From Clostridiales bacterium CHKCI006 (GTDB lineage Bacteria > Bacillota_I > Bacilli_A > Erysipelotrichales > Coprobacillaceae): 36,159 bases of DNA. The notes under the pieces were generated by a model that saw nothing but the letters and a program-made list of their open reading frames with translations, was not told where the DNA came from and did not search any database. Shown one piece after another: positions 14,664 to 31,028 of this stretch. Where the stretch lies: assembly GCA_900018345.1 (NCBI GenBank), contig FCNA01000122.1, positions 1-36,159 of the forward strand. Direction: 5' to 3'. The translations under genes were made by a program, and so were the position numbers. Within the stretch, counting starts at the first letter, position 1, and each line of letters starts with the position of its first letter.

Positions 14664-16160
14664 ATGGAAACAAAAAGCAGAAAACAAGTTAAAAGGCTCA
14701 TGTCTGGCAGTTCTTACTCTTCCGAAGAGCTTAGCTCTCTGACAATGGATGACGGTACTACGGTCGTCTATTCAGTCAATGGAGATATCAAACGATCTAT
14801 TTGTGGCAGTGTTGACGTGCACAAGAAAATCCTCATGGCTGCTATCTGCATAACCGATCCTGCTTCGCTTAAGTCCACCTTTTTTGTCAGAAAGTTCACA
14901 ACGATGAATGCCGACATCCGCACGATGGCAGGCTGGTTCAAAGAACATGGTGTGCAGGATGTCTGCATGGAGTCAACCGGTAAATACTGGATCCCTGTAT
15001 TCAATATTCTGGAACAGAATGATATCAAACCCATCCTGACACATCCTAAATATGTCAAGCAGGCGAAGGGACATAAAACAGATTTCCGTGATGCTATCCA
15101 TATGGCAAGCCTGTTCCGCATGGATCTGGTGATTGCTTCTTTCATCCCGCCTGCTGAGATTCGTGATCTCCGTGAACTGTGTCGTTATCGCCTTAAGCTC
15201 ACCTATATCCGAACATCTGAAAAGAATCGTTTTCAGAATTCTATGACTATCTCTAAAGTGCGTTTGGATAGCGTCTTCACTGATCCTTTTGGCAAATCAG
15301 CATCCGCTATCATGGAATACCTCATTTCTACAGATCCTGAACAGGTCAACGATGACGATATCCTGGCACTGATCAGCCGTCGTGGGAATGTGAAGGCCTC
15401 CAACGAAGAAATTTTGGACAGCATTCATGGTTATGAATTGATTGGTGTGCAGCGCGATAAGCTTCAAATCATCAGGATGCACATTACCCAGATAGATGAA
15501 TGCATTGACATGATTGATAGTAAACTGGAGTACTACCGTCAGAAATATGCCAATATCATCAATCATCTTACAACAATGGTTGGAATCACATCAATGTCTG
15601 CACTGTATATCCTTGGTGAGATCGGCACAGATATGTCAGTATGGCGTGATGATCATTCTCTTGCGTGTTGGGCTGGACTTTCCCCTGCAAACAATGCAAG
15701 CGCAGGAAAAAAGAAATCTACCAAAGTAGGCAATGGTGGGCATTATCTTAAACCACTGCTTGTACAATGTGCGCTGGCAGCTGTAAAAAGCACAAAGAAA
15801 GACCCCTACTTTCATCATAAATATGAAACGCTGAAAAAACGTCGTGGCCATAAAAAGGCAATCATTGCCATTGCAAGGAAGATGCTTGTAGCAATCTATC
15901 ATATGATCAGGGATGATACAAATTTCCATCCGATCGACAAGGAAGAGGTCACACAAAAAACGAAAAAGACACAAGGGTTGAATTTAAAAAATGTCCTCAT
16001 TTTCTTAAAAGAACATGGCGCTGATGGAAATATGATCCGCATGGTTGAAGAACAGTGCTCCGAAAATACAGAAATAAAAGACGCAAAAGAAAAACAATCC
16101 AATTTAGCAATAACAGATGCGTCTCAACCAATACAGGAATCTGTAAACGGAATGTCCTGA
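14664..16160 (+). CDS. IS110-family transposase (DEDD, bridge-RNA-guided type)
   Basis: A 498-aa transposase with GGAG 6-7 nt upstream of the ATG. The RuvC-like DEDD domain shows Asp51 (GSVDVHKK), Glu103 (MESTGKYW), Asp140 and Asp143 (GHKTDFRDA). The C-terminal Transposase_20 domain shows MVGITSMSALYILGEIG, WAGLSPANNASAGKKKS and the GNGGHYLKPLLVQCA helix; Ser346 in NASAGKK is the likely catalytic serine. It is longer than many family members (often about 400-430 aa), with an extra hydrophilic C-terminal tail of some 70 residues. All catalytic residues are present, so it may be active. Confidence 0.93.
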   Translation: METKSRKQVKRLMSGSSYSSEELSSLTMDDGTTVVYSVNGDIKRSICGSVDVHKKILMAAICITDPASLKSTFFVRKFTTMNADIRTMAGWFKEHGVQDVCMESTGKYWIPVFNILEQNDIKPILTHPKYVKQAKGHKTDFRDAIHMASLFRMDLVIASFIPPAEIRDLRELCRYRLKLTYIRTSEKNRFQNSMTISKVRLDSVFTDPFGKSASAIMEYLISTDPEQVNDDDILALISRRGNVKASNEEILDSIHGYELIGVQRDKLQIIRMHITQIDECIDMIDSKLEYYRQKYANIINHLTTMVGITSMSALYILGEIGTDMSVWRDDHSLACWAGLSPANNASAGKKKSTKVGNGGHYLKPLLVQCALAAVKSTKKDPYFHHKYETLKKRRGHKKAIIAIARKMLVAIYHMIRDDTNFHPIDKEEVTQKTKKTQGLNLKNVLIFLKEHGADGNMIRMVEEQCSENTEIKDAKEKQSNLAITDASQPIQESVNGMS

Positions 16161-19419: not shown

Positions 19420-19715
19420 CTAAGATCCCCTTCGAATCAAAGACTCACATATGGAAGAATGTCTGATGAAGGATGCGTTTGTGTTCTTTCTTTCATTCAT
19501 CCCTTCAGTAACCAGTCGTTCGCGTACCATCATCAATGCATAGCCAAGCAAATTTTGGCCCAACCATTGATGCATCATCCATCTATCAGGATCACTCATG
19601 GATAAACCAATCCCCCAGATACGATCCGTCACTGCACATTCAGCAAGGATGGCTTTTCCTGTAGCTAAAAGCCATTCTTTCAGTCTTGGATTTTGAATGA
19701 ATTTAGCGTCTAAAT
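19420..19715 (-). pseudogene. Truncated NADAR (YbiA-like) fragment
   Basis: The frame reads KFIQNPRLKEWLLATGKAIL, then LAECAVTDRIWGIGLSMSDPDRW, then WLGQNLLGYALMMVRERL and a 30-residue tail. This matches only the C-terminal half of a NADAR domain. The N-terminal half with the conserved glutamate is missing; upstream sequence past about 19715 belongs to the recombinase flank. It is clearly diverged from the intact NADAR at 25599-26072 at both protein and DNA level, so it is not a fresh duplicate. It lies between the lar promoter and the recombinase. Confidence 0.8.
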
Positions 19716-19776: not shown

Positions 19777-19807
19777 CTTATCCCCCTTCATCAACGTAAG
19801 CTTGTTG
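19777..19807 (+). repeat. Inverted copy of the hsdS recombination repeat
   Basis: This 31-bp segment matches, in reverse orientation, 20763-20793 at 29 of 31 positions. Those bases encode the LITLHQRKLV end of the hsdS TRDs; on the plus strand this copy reads LIPLHQRKLVEGF then stop. Similarity to hsdS stops sharply at 19777. The two copies flank the recombinase gene and could be its crossover sites. Confidence 0.8.
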
Positions 19808-19814
19808 AAGGATT

Positions 19815-20741
19815 TTAACTGAGACCTGCTAGAGAACGCATCACTAAATCAACGTCTTGATTTTCTAATTCCTGAATAATATGCAGATATGTTTTTTGCG
19901 TTGTTGTCATGCTCGCATGACCTAATCGCCTAGCTACACTCGCAATCGATACACCAGCAAACAGGAGGACTGAAGCATGTGTATGGCGTAAACCGTGTAT
20001 AGTAATTACAGATATATTTGTCTTCTTACAATGTCTTGCCAAAATGTCATTCACAGTAGAATTATAAACCTTATCTTTTACAAAAATGGGTTCATCTTTA
20101 TCTAAATCTTTGGTTAACTCAGAAAAACGAATCACAGTCTGCCAATCAATCTGTATTTTTCTGACCGAAGATTTATTCTTTGTCGGTAAGAAACCACCCT
20201 CACCTTTATAATCCCATGTCTTACTTATTGAAAGCATTTGATGTCCAAAGTCAAAGTCATTTGGAGTTACAGCTAATGCTTCAGAAAAGCGAATGCCTGT
20301 TTTAGCAATTAGAAAAATAAACCAATCCCAATTAACCTCAGGACCTAAATCCAAATCCTTTAATAATGTATGTAATTCAAATTGATTCAAATATTTTATC
20401 TTCTTCACTCTTGGTGGTTTTCCCTTAATGATTGCCTTTCTTGTCGGATCTCTTTCAATTAGGCCATCATCCACAGCATCCAATATTGCACCTTTTAATT
20501 GATGATGGAAATCCATGGTCGTTTGTCTTTCATGAAACTGTGCATATTCATTCAATAACTGCTGATATGTAATACGATTTAAATCACCGAGCGTTACATT
20601 TGGAATCAATCGCTCTAGCCATTTCTGTGTCATCCAGTATTTATCCAAAGTGACCTTACGAATAGCACCTTCTTTATAAACTTTTACCCATGTTTTATAA
20701 TATTCACAGAATAAATCAGCATTTTTAAATTCATTTAACAT
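19815..20741 (-). CDS. Tyrosine recombinase of the type I R-M locus
   Basis: A 308-aa phage-integrase-family recombinase. An N-terminal core-binding domain (about 5-100) precedes the catalytic domain. Catalytic residues are Arg151 (TGIRFSEAL), Lys188 or Lys190 (PTKNK), His249 and Arg252 (HGLRHTHAS), His275 (LGHASMTTT) and Tyr285 (KTYLH). The set is complete. GGAGG lies upstream of the ATG, which overlaps the end of the hsdS cassette by 11 nt. Similar recombinases beside hsdS genes in streptococci and other Bacillota switch target-recognition domains. An inverted hsdS-type repeat lies beyond its stop. It probably acts on the hsdS repeats (inference). Confidence 0.92.
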   Translation of the reverse strand: MLNEFKNADLFCEYYKTWVKVYKEGAIRKVTLDKYWMTQKWLERLIPNVTLGDLNRITYQQLLNEYAQFHERQTTMDFHHQLKGAILDAVDDGLIERDPTRKAIIKGKPPRVKKIKYLNQFELHTLLKDLDLGPEVNWDWFIFLIAKTGIRFSEALAVTPNDFDFGHQMLSISKTWDYKGEGGFLPTKNKSSVRKIQIDWQTVIRFSELTKDLDKDEPIFVKDKVYNSTVNDILARHCKKTNISVITIHGLRHTHASVLLFAGVSIASVARRLGHASMTTTQKTYLHIIQELENQDVDLVMRSLAGLS

Positions 20742-21282
20742 CGATATTTCCTCCTACATAAACAACAAGCTTACGCTGATGAAGGGTGATAAGGTTATCG
20801 AGTTTTTCAAAATACTCTGCAATTTGTGCCTGCTCATGTTCATTTCTTGAAACAAATACTTCTATCTCACTCAAAGCAGGATACTTCAAATTCCAGTTAT
20901 CTGATGTTATTCCCTGCGAATTAATTTGAAAAGTATGTATCATTTCAGGCAACTTAAATTGATAGGCCAAGCACTTGGAATTGATGCCTGAATTTGGAGA
21001 AAGCACCGTATATGCGGGACTTACAATGCCTTCGTAGGGAGAATAGCCGCTTGCTCCTTGCCACATTCTCATTGAGTTGTAAGCAATGTCGCCGACACAT
21101 ACTTTTTTATATTTTGACTTATCGTCATTTGAATTATCATGTCTTCCAAGCTCAGAAAATTTCTTGATACCATTATTGATAGTCACCGAAAGCAATTCTC
21201 CTTCAGGCATACTTTCTACTCGTTCTGTTAAGCAATCCCCCAGCTTACGCTGTTCCCAAGTTAAAGTCATATTTGTAGGCAA
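20731..21282 (-). CDS. Partial hsdS: single-TRD cassette S3 (probably silent)
   Basis: This encodes one half of a type I specificity subunit: the opening LTWEQRKLG, one target-recognition domain (about 15-150), then AEYFEKLDNLITLHQRK and an unrelated short tail VVYVGGNIDVK. A complete HsdS has two such halves. The apparent start is TTG at 21282, an ATG follows at 21270, and neither has a good ribosome binding site. It is separated from hsdR by a terminator. It overlaps the recombinase start. I read it as a stored TRD. Confidence 0.8.
   Translation of the reverse strand: MPTNMTLTWEQRKLGDCLTERVESMPEGELLSVTINNGIKKFSELGRHDNSNDDKSKYKKVCVGDIAYNSMRMWQGASGYSPYEGIVSPAYTVLSPNSGINSKCLAYQFKLPEMIHTFQINSQGITSDNWNLKYPALSEIEVFVSRNEHEQAQIAEYFEKLDNLITLHQRKLVVYVGGNIDVK
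20763..20793 (-). repeat. hsdS repeat, copy in S3
   Basis: This encodes the LITLHQRKLV end of the S3 TRD. It is shared in direct orientation with 24758-24779, 27216-27240 and 27828-27852, and in inverted orientation with 19777-19807. It is a candidate crossover site for the adjacent recombinase. Confidence 0.8.
21239..21265 (-). repeat. 27-bp direct repeat at the start of S3, shared with S2
   Basis: Identical to 25254-25280. It encodes LTWEQRKLG, the entry to the TRD. With the end repeat it brackets a TRD on both sides, so a TRD could be exchanged as a unit. Confidence 0.85.
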
Positions 21283-21365: not shown

Positions 21366-21404
21366 AAAATAAAAGGACAGATTACTCATCAAGAGCTCCT
21401 GTCC
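21366..21404 (-). terminator. Terminator after hsdR
   Basis: On the minus strand GGACAG (21399-21404) pairs with CTGTCC (21375-21380) around an 18-nt loop and is followed by TTTTATTTT. It lies 12 nt after the hsdR stop, separating hsdR from the S3-recombinase pair. Confidence 0.75.
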
Positions 21405-21415
21405 AACTTATTTTT

Positions 21416-24400
21416 TCATTTTTCCGCTTTAGCCAACTCATACCCGCCAGATAAAATAAATTTTCTTAGCAACGAATCAATTTTTATATTTAATGTAGGA
21501 ATCTTGATTTTTGTGTTTTCCAATTCTTCAAAGTACTTTCTAGCTTTCTGCCTATCAATCGATTTTTTTAAATCATCTAATCGACCAAACTCATTAATAT
21601 TTGCATCGGTCAATTTATGACCCATCATATTTCTGAGTTTATCCTCATCCAACCCAAACAACACTGCTAATTGATGAATTTGATCATCTTTTGCACGAGT
21701 TTGATATTCCACGATATAATCTTTTAAGGTTTTTCCTTCCTCAACCACTGCCTCACCACTTTGCACATCGTGTAAGAATATATTTGCATATTTTTGGTCT
21801 TCTTGGGATAAGGTAGCAAAAGTTTTATGTAATTCATTTAGCGCTTCTTCAAGTGATACTTGTGAAGAACCCTCCTGTTTTAATAATTTATAGTATTTTT
21901 CAAAACGAGTATTCATGTAATCGGCATCAATCATACCTGTATCAATTTCTGATAAATGGCCATCTAAGTCATATGCCGGTTCTTCGCCTCCACCCTGTGT
22001 ACCATCAGATGGAACTAGTAACTCCTTATATCTTTGAAGCAAGCTATCATAATCTGTTTTATCAAACGCTAATCGAATTGAAGAGTCTTCAAAAAAATAT
22101 TCATTTTGATCCCATCGAAATCCTTGAATCTTAGCAGCATCTAAATACCCAGAAAATTGATTAAACATTTTTACAAATTGACCAACTACCGCAGAATCAT
22201 CTGGTAATTTAGAGAAGTCTTTAATTCCAGCGTTATCGAACAATATTCTAATTTCATTAAAACGTTTATTTAACATCCTTAAATTATCTGGTAGTTTCTG
22301 CACAAACAAACCAATTGGTTTATCTCCAGAATACATTTTTACAGCTTTCTCAATATTTTGTCTCATCGTATATGGATAGCGATAATATCGAATAGATCCA
22401 AAACGCTTTTCTGGTCCAAACAATCGATTAGTCCTTGAAAAAGCCTGAATGATATTTTCATATTCGAGTACTTTATCTAAATATAATGTATTTATCCACT
22501 TAGAATCAAAACCCGTCAACATTTGATCAACAACAATTAATAGGTCTAATTCTTCATCTGGTTTATTAACAATTCGCTTATATGCATCTTTATGTGCTAG
22601 TCGAGAAGCAACATCTTTTTTAAAAGCAGCATGAGTAGCGATAGTAAAATCGCAATGATATCTTTCATTATAGTCATTCAAAATTTCAACTAACCCGTCC
22701 TCTTTAGCAACAGCCCCCTCAGTGTTATCGATATTAGAATCAAACAGGCTTGTAACTTTTAAGTCCGGTTTTTCTTGTTTAAATAAGTGATAGTATTCTA
22801 TTGCTTCTTGAATACTACTCGTTGCGAAAATAGCATGAAATTTGCCAAATAAACTCATCCGATTCCAGTTGTAGCAAATATCTTCAACTACCATCTTCTG
22901 ATGTTCGAATGATCTATATTGACTTTTAGGGATATTATCTTCTATGCCTTCAAATTTCTTACCATTTTTATCAATGTATCCTGCCATTGGTATACGTGAA
23001 GAGTCCATATACTTTAAGTAAATTTCATAGCGCTTAGTATCATTTATTATATCCACAACAGATTTAGCTTTTGCCTTATCTAAGGCAACCGCCTCACGCA
23101 GATCACTAGCCTTGAAAGTTTCAATCATATCCGGATCAAAGCCAAGAATATTACCGTCTCGTATTCCATCAGCGATACTATATCGATGAAGCTCATTACC
23201 AAACACTGTTTCTGTTGTATTCATTTTCTTCTTATTTTCTTCACCGATTGGTGTGCCTGTGAAGCCAAAGAAAATAGCTCTTGGGAAAGTGTTTTTAATT
23301 GTAATCAACATCTCACCAAAGGTAGAACGATGGGCTTCATCTACAATAAATACTAATCTTTTCGCGTTGATCTGATCAATATCGAATTGATTATAAACAC
23401 TATCTTCTTTGATATTACTCATCTTTTGAATAGAAGTAACAATTAGCGTTTCAGATGGATCATTACTTTTCAATTTAGAAATAAGCACCCCTGTATTTTC
23501 CGTTGCTTGCACACTCTCGTTATCATCAGCAAAAGAACGATACTCTTTTAAAGACTGTGTTCCCAATTCAATACGGTCGGTTAAGAAGACAACCTTATCT
23601 GCATCTTTAGAATTAGCGATTAATTGAGCAGACTTAAAACTGGTCATTGTTTTACCAGATCCAGTAGTATGCCAAACATAACCACCTAATTGGTTTTTGT
23701 CATCCCATTTCGTTTTAGCTACTTTATCAGAGATAGCGTTAGCTGCATAGTATTGATAGCTACGCATCACTTTTAAAACGCCATCTGAATCATCAGCTAC
23801 TGTATAGAACCCAATTAACTGATGAGCCATAGGAATAGATAAAAAAGAAGAAGCGATGTCTTTCCAATCATTTATCGGTTCGTTATTGAAATCAGCCCAG
23901 TGAAAATAATATGCTTTATTGAATGTACTCTCTGGTCCAGGATTCGCAAAATATAATGTTTCTTCTGGAGTCATCGCAACAAACACTTGAATTAGTGAAA
24001 ATAGGCCGGTAAAGATCCCTTCGTGTGCATATTTTTCAATTTGATTACATGCTTGACTAATTGGGACACTACTGGATTTCAATTCAATATGAATGACAGG
24101 CATTCCATTAATCAAAAGCATTAAATCCCCTCGACGATTATTTAACATTTTAGATTTACTCTTAAATACAGGTTGTTCTGCAATTTGATATCGGCTTTGT
24201 CCAGCAGCAATTTCCATTCTATCATATATTTTTAAACTTACTTCTTTACCAAAATGCTCCTTGTCTAGCGGATTATCCCTAACGATTGTAATGACTCTTC
24301 CATTAATAAATCCATTCAATCTTAAAGGTGTTCTTAATTCAGTAATCTGCTCAAGAATTTGTTGCATCTCTCCCTTTGTCAATGGATAATCATTAAGACG

Positions 24401-24553
24401 ATCACGTTTCCTATTATTTTCAAACAAGATTTCAGCCCAGTTCCGAATCAAATCTTCTTCAGTAGGATACTTCAATACTTTTCTTTCCCACCCTTTATCA
24501 AATAGTAATGTTATTAAGTCATGCTCAAATCTTGCTTCATCACTATAAGGCAT
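21416..24553 (-). CDS. hsdR: Type I restriction endonuclease subunit HsdR
   Basis: A 1045-aa restriction and translocation subunit. The PD-(D/E)xK nuclease site is Asp143...Glu157-x-Lys159 (RRGDLMLLI..HIELKSS). The SF2 motor has Walker A TTGSGKT (about 297-302) and a DEAH box VDEAHRS (405-408), then TGTPIG and the FSRTNRLFG motif. The long C-terminal part should contact HsdM2S. All main motifs are intact. GGAGGAGA lies upstream of the ATG. With HsdM and HsdS it cuts unmodified DNA after ATP-driven translocation. Unusually, it sits between two single-TRD hsdS cassettes. Confidence 0.96.
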   Translation of the reverse strand: MPYSDEARFEHDLITLLFDKGWERKVLKYPTEEDLIRNWAEILFENNRKRDRLNDYPLTKGEMQQILEQITELRTPLRLNGFINGRVITIVRDNPLDKEHFGKEVSLKIYDRMEIAAGQSRYQIAEQPVFKSKSKMLNNRRGDLMLLINGMPVIHIELKSSSVPISQACNQIEKYAHEGIFTGLFSLIQVFVAMTPEETLYFANPGPESTFNKAYYFHWADFNNEPINDWKDIASSFLSIPMAHQLIGFYTVADDSDGVLKVMRSYQYYAANAISDKVAKTKWDDKNQLGGYVWHTTGSGKTMTSFKSAQLIANSKDADKVVFLTDRIELGTQSLKEYRSFADDNESVQATENTGVLISKLKSNDPSETLIVTSIQKMSNIKEDSVYNQFDIDQINAKRLVFIVDEAHRSTFGEMLITIKNTFPRAIFFGFTGTPIGEENKKKMNTTETVFGNELHRYSIADGIRDGNILGFDPDMIETFKASDLREAVALDKAKAKSVVDIINDTKRYEIYLKYMDSSRIPMAGYIDKNGKKFEGIEDNIPKSQYRSFEHQKMVVEDICYNWNRMSLFGKFHAIFATSSIQEAIEYYHLFKQEKPDLKVTSLFDSNIDNTEGAVAKEDGLVEILNDYNERYHCDFTIATHAAFKKDVASRLAHKDAYKRIVNKPDEELDLLIVVDQMLTGFDSKWINTLYLDKVLEYENIIQAFSRTNRLFGPEKRFGSIRYYRYPYTMRQNIEKAVKMYSGDKPIGLFVQKLPDNLRMLNKRFNEIRILFDNAGIKDFSKLPDDSAVVGQFVKMFNQFSGYLDAAKIQGFRWDQNEYFFEDSSIRLAFDKTDYDSLLQRYKELLVPSDGTQGGGEEPAYDLDGHLSEIDTGMIDADYMNTRFEKYYKLLKQEGSSQVSLEEALNELHKTFATLSQEDQKYANIFLHDVQSGEAVVEEGKTLKDYIVEYQTRAKDDQIHQLAVLFGLDEDKLRNMMGHKLTDANINEFGRLDDLKKSIDRQKARKYFEELENTKIKIPTLNIKIDSLLRKFILSGGYELAKAEK

Positions 24554-24757
24554 TTACCGTCTCCTCCTTTCAAAAATATAACTAAAACCACTATATAGAA
24601 ATCTACCTTTACCAAAACCTATATACATAAAATTCACTTATTTCATCTATCTTTGAACAGTAAGAAAGAAAATGATATTGCTTCGTTAGCAATAATGAGC
24701 CACAGTCTTACCTGAAAAAATGCATTAATATATAATCGTGTTGCTTTTCTCATACTT
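24554..24757. other. Spacer between hsdS cassette S2 and hsdR
   Basis: This A/T-rich DNA probably contains the hsdR promoter, not clearly resolved. ATTGCT and AGCAAT near 24677-24695 form a small hairpin without a T-tract. No gene is seen. Confidence 0.4.
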
Positions 24758-24779
24758 TCACTGATGAAGGGTGATAAGG
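24758..24779 (-). repeat. hsdS repeat, copy in S2
   Basis: This end-of-TRD repeat is in the same orientation as the other hsdS copies. A change just before its end turns the arginine codon after Gln into TGA, so the frame stops at LITLHQ. Confidence 0.75.
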
Positions 24780-25253
24780 TTGTCGAGGCTACGTAGAAAT
24801 ACCCCTATTTTATATTGTTCATCATATGTCGGTAAATAAAATTCATAGTCAGCGTACTCTTGTGCGTTGACTCCGGGCTGTCCGGAACGCAGGGAGGTGA
24901 CTTGAATATATTTTCCATACGATTCGCTTAGAGTATTCTGAAAAACAAATTCAGCGTAACATTCCGGCTTAATTCTTGCCCTAATGAGAAATCCTGCAAA
25001 GTATACAATCCCATCTAATGTCCTATAAATATAGGATTTTCCAACACTCGCACCTGTTCGAGCAAAAAGAATGTCTCCATCATCTAACCGATAATTTCCG
25101 GCTGTTTCGAGTTCTATATCAGGCGAAGTCAGGTTATCTGTTTTGAATTTTCTTGACGCATCATCAATATCTGTTATTCTTAGATACTTATTAATGCCAT
25201 CGTACTCTTTGGCTGCGGAATTTAACCCGTACTCAAATGACTGAGCAACCTCT

Positions 25254-25280
25254 CCCAGCTTACGCTGTTCCCAAGTTAAA
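25254..25280 (-). repeat. 27-bp direct repeat at the start of S2
   Basis: Identical to 21239-21265, encoding LTWEQRKLG. Confidence 0.85.
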
Positions 25281-25598
25281 ATGTTACAAAATAATTTACC
25301 CAGTTCAACAAAGACATCTAAATCTACAAATGTATTCTCTATTGCTTCTAAATATTACCTCCCATACACATCATAAACAAATCCGGTTATATTATTTCTT
25401 TAATACATGATCCTTTGTTATGTTTTCACGCTGAGAATAACTTTCTAAAACACAAACGAAAACTATGTTGTGTTTGGAATCCAGTTACAAACAACTAAAT
25501 CCATTAACACTACTGACACACATTTACCCTCACGCTACTATCTCAAAATAATCGCGCTTCTGTATGAATCAACGTGATTCATTTTTCAGATATATACT

Positions 25599-26072
25599 CT
25601 ACAGTTGATCACGAACCATCATCAAAGCATAACCCAACAAATTTTTCCCTCTCCATTTGTTGATATCTAATCTATTTGGATCTGCCATTGATAAACCAAT
25701 GCCCCAGATGACATCTTTGACCGCACACTCTGCTAACACCGAACTTCTAGTTGATTTCAACTGTTTCTTTAATAGTTCATTCTGTGTAAATTTAGCAACT
25801 AACCCTTGGTAAACAATAATCTGTCGCACTCCATTCCAAATATGCTCATTATAATTCGATACCTGTCGTCCATATTGCTTGATTTTAAATGGATTACTTG
25901 TTGTAAGAATCTGTGCAGCAATATTTGAGTCATGGAAACATAAGGCTTTTTTATACATCATATACTGTTCCAAAGAAGAATAGGTTATACCATCTATTGT
26001 AAATTGGCTAAGATACCAGTTACTTAAATATCCATTCTCTTCATCTGGATTATGAAAACAAATAATGTTCAT
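25599..26072 (-). CDS. NADAR-family protein (ADP-ribose N-glycosidase fold)
   Basis: A 157-aa NADAR/YbiA-like protein, starting at the ATG at 26072. Family features are the early YLSNWYLSQFTIDG, the conserved Glu35 in YSSLEQYMMYKKAL, and the C-terminal DVIWGIGLSMADPN plus KWRGKNLLGYALMMVR. NADAR domains can remove ADP-ribose, notably from guanine in DNA in certain DarT-linked antitoxins. The gene begins right after an unrecognised gene that itself follows an ART-like gene. That order makes an ADP-ribosylation antitoxin role attractive but unproven. No strong ribosome binding site precedes it; translation is probably coupled to the upstream stop (TAG overlapping the spacer). Confidence 0.85.
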   Translation of the reverse strand: MNIICFHNPDEENGYLSNWYLSQFTIDGITYSSLEQYMMYKKALCFHDSNIAAQILTTSNPFKIKQYGRQVSNYNEHIWNGVRQIIVYQGLVAKFTQNELLKKQLKSTRSSVLAECAVKDVIWGIGLSMADPNRLDINKWRGKNLLGYALMMVRDQL

Positions 26073-26077
26073 CGTCA

Positions 26078-26491
26078 CTAAATGCCCACTTTCTTAACAG
26101 CAAGATCTAACTCTAAATCGTGCAACCCACCATAAGCCTTGAGAAGATATTCAACCGGTACTTTTTGAATCACCTTACTGCTTGGTATATTAAAATACCA
26201 TTGATAGTATGCATAAAACTCGCCAATCCAATCAGGTAAAAAGCCCTTCAAAGCATGTCCATCTTTTAGTATAAAATGATCCGTATCGCAAAAATAATTC
26301 CATAATTCTTCAGCATCCTTAGTATTCACATATGCTTGACCTTCATCAATACTCTTTCTTGTTTTGCTAGTCATATAGCTTTTAATAAAATCAACTGTAT
26401 CTTTTTCAGGATAATTCTGTGATACAAAATCAAATAATCTACCCTGATTCTCTACCACATCATCTAAATACGCTTCAGAATACGCTCTCAT
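26078..26491 (-). CDS. Unrecognised 137-aa protein between the ART-like and NADAR genes
   Basis: The start at 26491 has GAGAGGTG upstream and lies 4 nt after the ART-like stop, so the genes are coupled. The protein opens MRAYSEAYLDDVVENQG and has a central TRKSIDEGQAYVNTK and an aromatic stretch PDWIGEFYAYYQWYFNIPS, then AYGGLHDLELDLAVKKVG. It is predicted soluble and mostly helical, without signal peptide or membrane segment. I do not recognise the domain; I have the impression that similar proteins accompany DUF3990-type genes in gut Firmicutes. It could be a partner, an adaptor or a second antitoxin. Confidence 0.8.
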   Translation of the reverse strand: MRAYSEAYLDDVVENQGRLFDFVSQNYPEKDTVDFIKSYMTSKTRKSIDEGQAYVNTKDAEELWNYFCDTDHFILKDGHALKGFLPDWIGEFYAYYQWYFNIPSSKVIQKVPVEYLLKAYGGLHDLELDLAVKKVGI

Positions 26492-26495
26492 ATTT

Positions 26496-27149
26496 TCACC
26501 TCTCAAATAATGTACTAAACACGTGGGTTACTTTATTGGCATCAGAATTAATCAGATTACGCATCTGATTTCTTGCTTCTACATCTCTTTCATTGTACTT
26601 TTCATTAAATTCAGTATAACCAACGGGACATAATCCATCCTTGATCTCATTCAATTTTGAAAATGCCAACTCAGATTTTATACAATATTGAATGCCTAAT
26701 CCTCCCAAAGACAATAATTCCTCCAAAATATCTATATCGATGTTGTCACGTACAAACTCTTTAGCTATATAAAAATATGACGCATTGGCTCTCCAGCCCT
26801 TTATAACATCGTACTCACTAGTATCAAGCCCATATTCTTCAATAAATTTTGCAGATAGAATTTTATAACGTCTTGATTTATCAGCATCTCTATGCTTCAT
26901 TAGCTCAGCGAGCCAATGAAGAACGTTGTGTTCTTGAAAATCTAGTATTTTTAAATTCGTAATATCTAATTCATATTGATGAACCCAACCATTTGTCTCG
27001 TCAGGCCTACATACAGCCCACTCTTTTGCTAATTCAATACTTTCAGTTAAATAAAATCCTTTACCATAATCATGTCTATCTTCTCCTAATCCGTATTGAG
27101 GTACTATCACCTCATTGGGACTTCCGTGATATAAAATTATCTTTTTCAT
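26496..27149 (-). CDS. DUF3990-like putative ADP-ribosyltransferase
   Basis: A 217-aa protein. The N terminus ILYHGSPNEVI (His8) and the following DYGKGFYLTESIELAKEWA match the DUF3990/ART pattern in which the H and Y of an H-Y-[EDQ] triad bind NAD+. The rest includes HQYELDITNLKILDF and a helical C-terminal half; the third catalytic residue was not assigned with confidence. Members of this group are predicted ADP-ribosyltransferases, some as toxins. It begins 12 nt after the full hsdS stop, so it is probably in the hsdMS transcript. The downstream NADAR gene suggests a paired modification/removal function. Confidence 0.75.
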   Translation of the reverse strand: MKKIILYHGSPNEVIVPQYGLGEDRHDYGKGFYLTESIELAKEWAVCRPDETNGWVHQYELDITNLKILDFQEHNVLHWLAELMKHRDADKSRRYKILSAKFIEEYGLDTSEYDVIKGWRANASYFYIAKEFVRDNIDIDILEELLSLGGLGIQYCIKSELAFSKLNEIKDGLCPVGYTEFNEKYNERDVEARNQMRNLINSDANKVTHVFSTLFER

Positions 27150-27161
27150 AGTTTATCAATC

Positions 27162-28391
27162 CTATACAAACATCTTTTCTAATAACGATTTCTTTATATT
27201 TTGAAGAATTTCTACCTTACGCTGATGAAGGGTGATAAGGTTATCAAGGCTGGCAAAATACTGACCAATGGCTTTCTGCTCCACTAGTGTTGGAGGCATC
27301 ATTAACTCCATATTGGCCATCTGCTTACCTGATACTTCTGCAAATGTTGATCCTGCTCCGACGGTTTCTCCGTACTGCTTTAATTCATCTGCTCGTGAGA
27401 AAATGAAGTACGAGTCCAGTTCTTCTTTGTGTGGAACTATGGATTGAAAACCTTGATTTGTGCAACCTTTTCGCCCTAAAATAGCAGTTTTCCCTATTCC
27501 GGCACGAGAAGTAAACAGTACTGTCCCAACAGGCAACATTTTTGCTGAACTGTGATTATAGCCTTGTTCTGTTATCTTCCTCTGGCTTGAAGTCAAATAA
27601 ATTTGGTCTGCGATTTCGGCAGGAGCGTACCAATCAATATCGCCATCCCAAAACTCCGAAATGTTCGTGCTTGGCGTTCCGCCACCAACTATATCTGCCA
27701 TGCTCCCTAACTTACACTGTTCCCAAGCGTCAGTAAATCCTTTAAATCGTACTTCTGGATACAGAGAATCATTTTTCGGAAACATTTTTTCAAGTAACGA
27801 TTTTTTTGTATTTTTTAACAGGTCACACTTACGCTGATGAAGGGTGATAAGGTTGTCGAGGTTACGAAATACAGCAACAATCCGGTCTTGTTCTGCTCTT
27901 GTTGGAAACGAAATGGATACCTCTTGAATATCCGAATTATGGATATGAACAACTGATTTACCTTGTGCCTTTTTTGCCAGTTCTTTTTGTGGTTCGCCAC
28001 TTGAAATAGCAAGGGCTAAAAACAATGGGTTAATAAAGCTGAATGGACGAAGAATATTTAAGTCTCCACCAAGCAAAACCCCTGATTTTTCAATAGCTGA
28101 TGCTCTTGCGATGTCCTCGGCTGTCTCTCCCGAAGCAGGAATAATTACTTCATTGCCTTGGCTGTAAACAGAACCGTCTTTCGGAATAGCAAAGGTATCT
28201 ACTTCACTAATAGCAAATTGATATTTTGTATAGAGTCTGCCATACAAAATTATTGGTGTTCCAATGTCCACCAAATCACTTTTGGAATAGCCATTTCCTT
28301 TTGAATAATCAGCGATATCCATAGCCTTACGCTGTTCCCAATCATCAGTGAATCCTTTGAATCGAATTGCTGGTTTCATACTGTTAGCCAT
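27162..28391 (-). CDS. hsdS: Type I restriction specificity subunit HsdS (complete, two TRDs)
   Basis: A protein of about 409 aa with two target-recognition halves. Half 1 opens IRFKGFTDDWEQRKAM and ends VFRNLDNLITLHQRKCDLLKNTKKSLLEKMF. Half 2 opens VRFKGFTDAWEQCKLG and ends FASLDNLITLHQRKVEILQNIKKSLLEKMF. The two repeated helix regions bind the two HsdM copies and set the spacing of the split target site. I chose ATG at 28391, which overlaps the hsdM stop by 8 nt. An upstream GTG would also be in frame. It is the only HsdS here with a normal start and both domains, hence the expressed one. Confidence 0.93.
   Translation of the reverse strand: MANSMKPAIRFKGFTDDWEQRKAMDIADYSKGNGYSKSDLVDIGTPIILYGRLYTKYQFAISEVDTFAIPKDGSVYSQGNEVIIPASGETAEDIARASAIEKSGVLLGGDLNILRPFSFINPLFLALAISSGEPQKELAKKAQGKSVVHIHNSDIQEVSISFPTRAEQDRIVAVFRNLDNLITLHQRKCDLLKNTKKSLLEKMFPKNDSLYPEVRFKGFTDAWEQCKLGSMADIVGGGTPSTNISEFWDGDIDWYAPAEIADQIYLTSSQRKITEQGYNHSSAKMLPVGTVLFTSRAGIGKTAILGRKGCTNQGFQSIVPHKEELDSYFIFSRADELKQYGETVGAGSTFAEVSGKQMANMELMMPPTLVEQKAIGQYFASLDNLITLHQRKVEILQNIKKSLLEKMFV
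27216..27240 (-). repeat. hsdS repeat, end of TRD2
   Basis: This 25-bp segment is identical to 27828-27852 and shared with cassettes S2 and S3. Confidence 0.85.
27828..27852 (-). repeat. hsdS repeat, end of TRD1
   Basis: This 25-bp segment is identical to 27216-27240, in the same orientation, within one gene. Recombination with the S2 or S3 copies would exchange or delete downstream TRDs. Confidence 0.85.
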
Positions 28392-30957
28392 AATTATCAC
28401 CCGATAACAAGATTTTTAGCTCATTTAATCCTTTCATATCGAATTCACTTCCTTCTAAATCATCAATCATAGAACATAGACTTTTTTCAGTTTCACGAAT
28501 TTCTCTTTCAATATCAAGATATGTACTAGCATATTTCTTTTGAAGTGCTTGAACTTTTTGAACTAAATTATTAATGATCTGTTTTGGCAACTGATACAAG
28601 TTATTAATCAGACTAGTAATCCATTTCTTTTCAAGCAACATTTCAACTTGCTCATCCGCCAAAGATTCTATGGTATCCTTTGTCAGTTCATGCAAAGCTG
28701 CACTATCTTTTTTTATTTCTGCTTTAAGGACTTTTTCTTCTGAAAACAAATGATCTACATCGTTTAATTTCTTTAACAAAAGTTGATCTTCTGAAGAAGT
28801 TGATTTCTTTAATTCCTTTATTTTCTTTGTAACTTCTTTAGCAACAAAAGATTCGTCTACATAATAAGATCCGTCTTTTTCATCTTCACTCATCTCACCA
28901 GCTATTGCTTCTAATTCAGATGGGATCTGAGATAACCTAGACTCCTTTTCTTTTAATAAATCGCTCTCTTTTTTAAGCAATGTCTCTTGGACTAATGTGA
29001 ACGGCAAAACATGACCTGTCCATCCCTCTTGAATCTCCTCTTCTTTTCCACCTTTCTTTTTCAAAACCAGATTGGGATCAACTTTTTTAATAGACTCCGT
29101 ACCTTCAGTTTGAATCATCTCCAAATCGATAGCGATTTTACTCCATTCATCGTCCAACAATTGATAAGCATCATAAGGATCAACAAGTGGTATATTTTGC
29201 AATCTTTGAAAAATCTCATTACTTATCATACTTTCTGTTTTTGAAATATCTAAGGTTTCCATTTGATCCAATAAATTTGATTTTAAATATTGAGAAAAAC
29301 TATGGAAAATATCATCAAATTGAGTAGTGAAATTGAGCACATCTGAGTGCTTACGTATAAAAGACTGCACATCATCATGAAGAAGTGTTACATAAGGGGT
29401 TCCTGTATCCTGAAATAATTCCTGTTTTAACCTTGGAAAAGTGTTCCAATAAGCGTTCAGCTCATCGAGCTCTGATTTAGGAATCCCGCCAAACATCGTT
29501 GCGTAAACATCCCAAGACTCTGCCTTTTGGGATGAATCGACATAACGAGGTATATTCAGATTATAGTCATTAGCACGAATCTCTTCACGAGATACGACTT
29601 TAGAGAAACTTTCTATACTAACTCTTTTAGCTACTGTATCTGATATTTTTTTAATATCACAAGCGCGAAGTTTATTGTTCTTTCCTTCTTTCACAAACCC
29701 CTTACTAGCATCGATAATCAGCACATCTGTATTCTCACGTTTTTGTTTAAGGACCATAATAATGGTTGGGATTCCAGTTCCATAAAAGATATTTGCTGGT
29801 AACCCGATAATAGCATCAATATGATTATTCTCAATGAGATTTTTTCGAATTGTCCCTTCTTCTCCGCCACGAAAAAGAACTCCATGTGGCAAAACAATCG
29901 TCACAATACCATCGGGTTTAATATGGTATAAATTATGTAATAGAAAAGCATAATCGGCTTTGCTTTTTGGCGCCAAACCGAATCGTTTGAAACGAGGGTC
30001 TTGTTCTTTCCCTGATGGATCCCAGTTCTGAGAATACGGCGGATTAGAAACCACTGCATCTACATATAAAGGCTCATAGGTATTTTGAGGATCATTATCC
30101 TCAAAATAAGGCCAGTCATCTTCCAACGTATCGCCATTTCGAGTCACTATATTGGCAGGTATGATCCCTCTCATTATTAAATTCATACGTGTAAGGTTAT
30201 AGGTATTCTCCTTTAATTCCTGTGCATAGTACTTAATATTGTTTTTATTTGACATGTATTTTGATACACTATGACCAATATTGATCAACAATGAGCCAGA
30301 TCCGCTAGTCGGGTCATATATCTTAATTTCTTCATGTCCTTTTAGATGATTTGCTACAATCTCAGACATTAAGAGTGAGACTTCATGAGGTGTGTAGAAT
30401 TCTCCTGCTTTCTTGCCTGCGTTAGCAGCAAAGTTGCTGATGAGGTATTCATAAATAAAGCCTAATACGTCATAATCCTGTTTACCATCCATTGGAATAT
30501 CTTTAATTAACTGCAATAATCCACTAATTGCTTTTGTCCTCGCTCCTGAGCTATCTCCTAGTTTACTTAAACCAGTCTCTAATGTCTGGAATATATTCTC
30601 AAAGACTTTTTTATAGCTAGGATGGATAAGACGACTAAATGCAGAAAGAGCATCTGTAACATTGGACACATCAAAATCTTTTCCCTTCTTAAGCCAAGTA
30701 GAGTATAAATTGTCATACGCAATAAAATACCCTAGATTCTGGCGAACATATTGTGTCGTCTCATCATCTTCTTCACTTAACGCTTCAATATCTTCCTCTG
30801 CAAAGCCTTCTTCTTTTAGCAACCGCACCTCATAATCAGACAAATATTTATAAAATATGAACCCTAGAATATAGTCCTTATATTCATTCGCCTCAATTTT
30901 TGATCTCATTTTATTGGCTGATTCCCATATTTTATTAGCTAACTGCTGTTTATTCAT
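28384..30957 (-). CDS. hsdM: Type I DNA methyltransferase subunit HsdM (extended C terminus)
   Basis: An 857-aa N6-adenine methyltransferase using the ATG at 30957, with GGAGG 7 nt upstream. An HsdM_N helical domain (about 5-140) precedes the catalytic domain with SAM motif YDPTSGSGSLL (about 214-224), the adenine-methylation motif NPPY (305-308) and FYTPHEVSLLM. The catalytic part ends near 470. Another 380 residues follow, charged and largely helical with probable coiled coils (about 640-790). Many HsdM proteins are near 500-530 aa, so this one has a large extension, seen in some type I families. It works with HsdS and HsdR. It is the first gene of the operon. Confidence 0.95.
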   Translation of the reverse strand: MNKQQLANKIWESANKMRSKIEANEYKDYILGFIFYKYLSDYEVRLLKEEGFAEEDIEALSEEDDETTQYVRQNLGYFIAYDNLYSTWLKKGKDFDVSNVTDALSAFSRLIHPSYKKVFENIFQTLETGLSKLGDSSGARTKAISGLLQLIKDIPMDGKQDYDVLGFIYEYLISNFAANAGKKAGEFYTPHEVSLLMSEIVANHLKGHEEIKIYDPTSGSGSLLINIGHSVSKYMSNKNNIKYYAQELKENTYNLTRMNLIMRGIIPANIVTRNGDTLEDDWPYFEDNDPQNTYEPLYVDAVVSNPPYSQNWDPSGKEQDPRFKRFGLAPKSKADYAFLLHNLYHIKPDGIVTIVLPHGVLFRGGEEGTIRKNLIENNHIDAIIGLPANIFYGTGIPTIIMVLKQKRENTDVLIIDASKGFVKEGKNNKLRACDIKKISDTVAKRVSIESFSKVVSREEIRANDYNLNIPRYVDSSQKAESWDVYATMFGGIPKSELDELNAYWNTFPRLKQELFQDTGTPYVTLLHDDVQSFIRKHSDVLNFTTQFDDIFHSFSQYLKSNLLDQMETLDISKTESMISNEIFQRLQNIPLVDPYDAYQLLDDEWSKIAIDLEMIQTEGTESIKKVDPNLVLKKKGGKEEEIQEGWTGHVLPFTLVQETLLKKESDLLKEKESRLSQIPSELEAIAGEMSEDEKDGSYYVDESFVAKEVTKKIKELKKSTSSEDQLLLKKLNDVDHLFSEEKVLKAEIKKDSAALHELTKDTIESLADEQVEMLLEKKWITSLINNLYQLPKQIINNLVQKVQALQKKYASTYLDIEREIRETEKSLCSMIDDLEGSEFDMKGLNELKILLSGDNYG

Positions 30958-31000
30958 TTTCATTCCTCCAAAACCACTCAATCCTATCCCTGATAAGTAT

Positions 31001-31028
31001 ATCATAACACAAAACACCAAATAGTAAA
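31001..31028 (-). promoter_or_regulatory. hsdM operon promoter
   Basis: TTTACT (31023-31028), a 16-nt spacer and TATGAT (31001-31006) with a preceding TGT (extended -10) on the minus strand lie about 44 nt upstream of the hsdM start. Just upstream, ATATTAC and GTAATAT (31037-31056) form an inverted repeat that could bind a regulator. Confidence 0.65.

Follow-up and report, generated by a model that had tools for sequence, protein, structure and literature searches.

The question raised by this locus is why the gene of a tyrosine recombinase, situated within a type I R-M locus, should be enclosed by a pair of inverted repeats, and whether the enzyme may use these repeats to turn its own gene around. 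The window, that is, the whole stretch of 36,159 nucleotides that was analysed, derives from Clostridiales bacterium CHKCI006, and the original prediction had pointed to an inverted match around the recombinase gene and to a sharp end of the hsdS similarity at the outer edge of the distal copy, here called the stub. Both observations were recovered: a repeat search of the window independently found 29 of 31 positions identical between 19777-19807 and the reverse complement of 20763-20793 (31 nt, 94% complementary, 955 nt separating the arms), and outward of the repeat hsdS runs on as ...AAACTCGATAAC while the stub diverges as ...TTTATTTCTTTT. From base composition, an inverted pair of this quality within 2 kb is expected about 1e-7 times anywhere in the window, which rules out a product of chance. 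One arm is the conserved 3' end of hsdS cassette S3 (the LITLHQRK codons plus 7 bp), and the other lies just past the recombinase stop codon and is non-coding. They differ at two positions, A/C in CTTATC(A/C)CCC and G/A in CATCA(G/A)CGTAAG, the latter being a one-base difference between the two cores (CAGCG/CAACG). A search of the 3.33-Mb genome with the 24-bp motif (at most 3 mismatches) returned five copies, none outside this locus: those at 20770, 24755, 27216 and 27828 are on the minus strand, and the fifth, inverted copy is the stub; because there is no further copy beyond those five, this search of the single assembly reveals no flipped junction.

The locus unites hsdR, hsdM and hsdS, as expected of a type I R-M system, and the recombinase gene lies inside it, as in inverting type I loci; on the minus strand the order is hsdM, hsdS1, a three-gene PDC-M42-like module, S2, hsdR, S3, recombinase and stub (Table 1). 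The recombinase carries all the catalytic residues of PF00589 tyrosine recombinases (Arg, Lys, His-x-x-Arg, His and Tyr), in motifs located by sequence at TGIR 148, KNKSS 188, HGLRH 249, LGHAS 273 and TYLH 284, and its start is overlapped by S3 over 11 bp. An inverted second hsdS cassette with a TRD is absent from the locus, where all TRD cassettes occupy the minus strand and only the 31-bp stub is inverted; the cassettes are bounded by direct repeats and share one orientation, as in tvr-like loci with excision and reintegration. The PDC-M42 A/B/C genes obtained very strong PADLOC scores and form a candidate defence module within the type I R-M locus. About 130 bp past the stub, a C-terminal remnant of a NADAR gene (19513-19644, ORF 19420-19632) aligns over 132 nt with the intact NADAR gene (25599-26078) at 71% identity, and it is a vestige of either a second PDC-M42-like module or a duplication. 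An IS110-family RNA-guided transposase gene lies near the locus (14664-16160).

Table 1. Features of the type I R-M locus and of the inverted sites around its recombinase gene.
Feature	Position	Strand	Basis or detail
Distal (stub) inverted site	19777..19807	+	outer arm CTTATCCCCCTTCA, core TCAACGTAAG, inner arm CTTGTTG
Tyrosine recombinase, 308 aa	19815..20741	-	PF00589, E 1e-18
hsdS half gene S3, one TRD	20731..21282	-	PF01420
Proximal inverted site, 3' end of hsdS cassette S3	20763..20793	-	outer arm CTTATCACCCTTCA, core TCAGCGTAAG, inner arm CTTGTTG
5' core CAGCGTAAG of cassette S3 (WEQRK)	21244..21252	-	core motif search
Strong hairpin with U-rich tail, gap from hsdR to S3/recombinase	21366..21414	-	z -5.2
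hsdR	21416..24553	-	gene annotation
hsdS cassette S2, one TRD, apparently silent	24755..25354	-	frame open, no ATG/GTG/TTG-started ORF listed
S2 5' core	25259-25267	-	S2 degenerate 3' core at 24755-24763 (CAGTGAAAG, two mismatches)
Candidate defence module PDC-M42 A/B/C (DUF3990, unknown, NADAR), gap from hsdS1 to S2	25599..27149	-	PADLOC
Full-length hsdS1, two TRDs	27162..28400	-	cores at 28326-28334, 27828-27836, 27711-27719 (1 mismatch) and 27216-27224
hsdM	28384..31020	-	gene annotation

The core of the repeat recurs at the cassette boundaries. CARCGTAAG is present in seven mismatch-free copies in the window, six at TRD-cassette ends and one in the stub, with near-copies at 27711 (5' end of the second TRD of hsdS1) and 24755 (3' end of S2), so that direct copies of the core mark the TRD ends, with WE-QRK codons at the 5' end and LH-QRK codons at the 3' end. 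Across related loci the QRK codons are nearly always CAG-CGT-(A/G)AG at 136 WEQR and 140 LHQR motifs (n=276), and the CGT codon is used in 91-93% of cases at core motifs versus a background of 26% in hsdM and hsdR of the same loci, which indicates a constraint on the DNA beyond that on the protein alone.

The survey of flanks of related recombinase genes, whose products are about 71-83% identical, covered 80 loci of named genomes together with a few loci of relatives; the loci with enough flank (n=84) were testable, and the core was scored out of 10 with a cut-off of at least 8.5. The 10-bp core TCARCGTRAG was found inverted on both flanks of the recombinase gene in 46 of the 84 loci, as against 0.002 expected from shuffled flanks, with medians of 28 bp between the upstream core and the start codon and of 23 bp between the stop codon and the downstream core, while 12 of the 84 had a recognisable core on neither side. 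In the gene labelling of these loci, S labels overlapping the recombinase were left out, the home-made hsdS profile having matched recombinase ORFs too. Site classes were set by whether an hsdS reading frame enters the core: hsdS lies on both sides, in inverted orientation, in 7 loci, upstream only with a stub downstream in 13 (the window included), downstream only with a stub upstream in 11, and on neither side of two cores in 19, the remaining loci having one or no recognisable core.

The extent of the site can also be read from these comparisons. The 13 stubs opposite a docked hsdS agree with the hsdS consensus at 9.1 of their outer 14 nt, versus 4.4 after shuffling (maximum 5.9 in 2000), and the next six nt are like hsdS only at chance level. 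The two arms resemble each other more within than between loci in the inner arm, the core and the outer arm (0 of 5000 permutations each, with relatedness of the loci corrected for only in part), this matching holds also in loci without hsdS on either side, and inner-arm identity drops to background after 6 nt; taken together, these limits outline a site of about 14+10+6 nt, nearly the length of the 31-bp repeat in the window. Variant cores are likewise paired, the same variant occurring on both sides in L127 and L132.

Judged from the sequence comparisons, the 31-bp arms are probably the recombinase's own paired recombination sites, the stub being a distal site that has been kept. Each site would have three parts, an outer arm (about 14 bp), the core (10 bp) and an inner arm (about 6-7 bp), and the two sites are inverted around the recombinase gene; their core recurs, directly oriented, at the TRD cassette ends. 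Either site could join a TRD cassette, and, as relatives carry a cassette upstream, downstream, on both sides or on neither, the stub is most likely an unoccupied site of this kind. Since all TRD cassettes share one orientation, cassette exchange in this locus would need excision and reintegration, or successive inversions through the stub.

Alternatively, an inverted hsdS cassette past the recombinase may have been deleted, leaving its last 24-31 bp as a scar and the two arms as passive relics. This seems unlikely, even though seven loci do have inverted hsdS on both sides, the stub retains almost the whole hsdS-type outer arm, and the broken NADAR gene beyond it indicates that this flank suffered deletion. 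Stubs stopping at about the same point occur in 12 other loci, several of them from distant genera, a stub core CAACG stands opposite CAGCG in 7 of the 13 upstream-only loci, and the paired core persists where hsdS is found on neither side. With stubs of much the same extent in so many loci, the old inversion boundary envisaged in the original prediction is less likely to be nothing but a scar, and a dedicated distal site appears to be the most likely identity of the stub, a random scar less so. By the same recurrence and the paired cores without hsdS, the repeat is also disfavoured as a mere coding remnant of hsdS.

The repeats could also be likened to terminal inverted repeats: they would bound a small mobile cassette by which the recombinase moves between R-M loci, and inversion would be incidental. 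Close relatives do occur in distant taxa, including Bacillota, Coriobacteriales, Succinivibrionaceae and Pasteurellaceae, and paired ends are kept in loci without hsdS on either side; however, type I R-M genes adjoin the recombinase in nearly every locus with enough flank, and no other copy of the ends exists in the genome, which leaves this interpretation very improbable.

If the arms are paired recombination sites, recombination between them would flip the recombinase gene. In 48 loci the recombinase shares its strand with hsdM/hsdR and in 15 it lies opposite to them, and at least 8 orientation changes are required on the recombinase tree versus 13.6 with shuffled labels, so that orientation shifts in evolution yet is non-random. 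Within one well-supported clade, L062 and L067 have hsdR 76% identical beside the recombinase and the recombinase reversed, and L071/L093 are likewise opposite in orientation to L045/L046/L050, with an operon region about 77-83% identical; pairs of the L062/L067 type are not strain-level flips, because their other flanks differ. The related loci L007, L008 and L127 are all in one orientation, and this uniform trio, together with the clustering of orientation, implies that flipping is too infrequent to randomise it. A larger segment, of about 2.25 kb and holding a 65%-identical recombinase and hsdS parts, is inverted in Listeria between flanks about 97% identical (L123/L124 versus L125), the partners being L. 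monocytogenes-associated contigs and L. innocua. L123 and L124 were deposited as Listeria phage and share 10,131 bp at 100% identity; this stretch, whose type I R-M locus is almost the same as one in L. innocua, is probably host DNA. Among six records of L. salivarius megaplasmids with a 55% relative, neither such a repeat nor a strain-level flip was found, all six being oriented alike; a copy on another plasmid (L122) has no such repeat either, and a search of E. coli genomes with a Rodentibacter relative gave no match. The original prediction asked whether related strains carry the gene flipped: relatives carry it in both orientations with respect to homologous operons, and no flip was seen among the records compared within L. 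salivarius.

As regards expression, the gap between core and start codon (median 28 bp) fits a ribosome-binding site and is too short for a full promoter. A terminator-like hairpin occupies the hsdR-recombinase gap in 17 of the 36 loci with hsdR directly upstream, versus 1.1 expected, and the one in the window, imperfect but strong, is terminator- or attenuator-like; together with the S3 overlap it suggests that the recombinase is expressed by read-through. A look-alike terminator (GAGTCAAGG..CCTTGGCTCTTTT) in this gap recurs across genera, in L041, L047, L055, L070, L077, L100 and others. Inversion would detach the recombinase gene from the operon and leave it facing the operon, and the flipped gene would lose transcription from the hsdR-S3 side, because only about 28 bp with the ribosome-binding site separates the upstream core from the start; the outcome could be a self-limiting switch. 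As read from the sequence, the S3 tail would change too, LVEGF replacing LVVYVGGNIDVK.

A stronger form of the paired-site explanation, compatible with it, holds that the switch is active in this strain, with frequent flipping of the gene toggling both its expression and the S3 tail. We regard this as possible but rather doubtful: the inner interval that fits a ribosome-binding site only, the signs of read-through and the two orientations among relatives speak for it, whereas a single assembly without a flipped junction, stable orientation within clades and the one-base mismatch between the cores speak against it. That mismatch, G in the upstream core and A in the downstream one, is seen in 9 of 50 loci, always in this sense; frequent exchange across this base should erase the difference, which means that either the crossover spares the base or inversion is rare. 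Self-inversion of the recombinase gene with the end of S3, as originally proposed, is structurally plausible on the strength of paired conserved cores, recurrent site length and arms matching within the locus, while activity of such a switch here is weakened by clade-stable orientation and the core mismatch.

The locus belongs with recombinase-driven shuffling of type I specificity (hsdS), a known general kind. Pneumococcal cod/SpnIII with PsrA shares with it a type I R-M locus, a tyrosine recombinase and short inverted repeats in hsdS parts; its 15-bp IR1 also requires adjoining upstream sequence, and hsdSA-hsdSC rearrangements span psrA (PMC4948785, PMC7096588). IR1, however, joins two hsdS genes and swaps TRDs, whereas the pair in the window encloses the recombinase gene alone and the TRD cassettes all point one way. 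The SpnIV tvr locus with TvrR resembles the window in its one-way TRD cassettes, direct repeats, recombinase inside the locus and other genes between cassettes, and an upstream hairpin limits tvrR expression in pneumococcus (PMC6265443); in contrast, direct repeats have been described there and no inverted site pair around tvrR, and excision circles have been demonstrated for tvr (PMC6265443). Inverting loci of a REBASE survey, e.g. in Listeria and Enterococcus, likewise have duplicated hsdS, inverted repeats and a recombinase (PMC7394358), and natural inversion is seen in a Listeria relative. That survey required exact 20-bp hsdS repeats in inverted orientation (PMC7394358), while the inverted partner here, a non-coding stub of 31 bp, carries two mismatches. 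The literature searched yielded no R-M locus in which the recombinase gene is enclosed by its own sites, a result that does not prove that there is none; with its bracketed recombinase and non-coding distal site, the locus is a variant for which that literature gave no description.

It may be proposed, although we consider it more doubtful still, that a widespread family shuffles type I specificity from a site-bracketed cassette with a ribosome-binding site only, each inversion toggling the recombinase as a self-limiting switch. If the paired sites work, recombinase expression would be tied to its own reaction, which could explain how runaway shuffling is avoided, and there would be a defined 31-bp site and a simple PCR test for the two orientations, applicable to dozens of bacteria from gut and rumen. 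The constraint that acts at DNA level on QRK codons at TRD ends offers a simple marker for loci that this recombinase family shuffles. Many contigs of the survey (L036, L037, L038, L048, L058, L063, L085 and L095; L043, L049, L061 and L064) end less than 200 bp from the recombinase, mostly on the hsdS-joined side; repeats, or a mixture of arrangements in the sample, would be expected to cause such ends.
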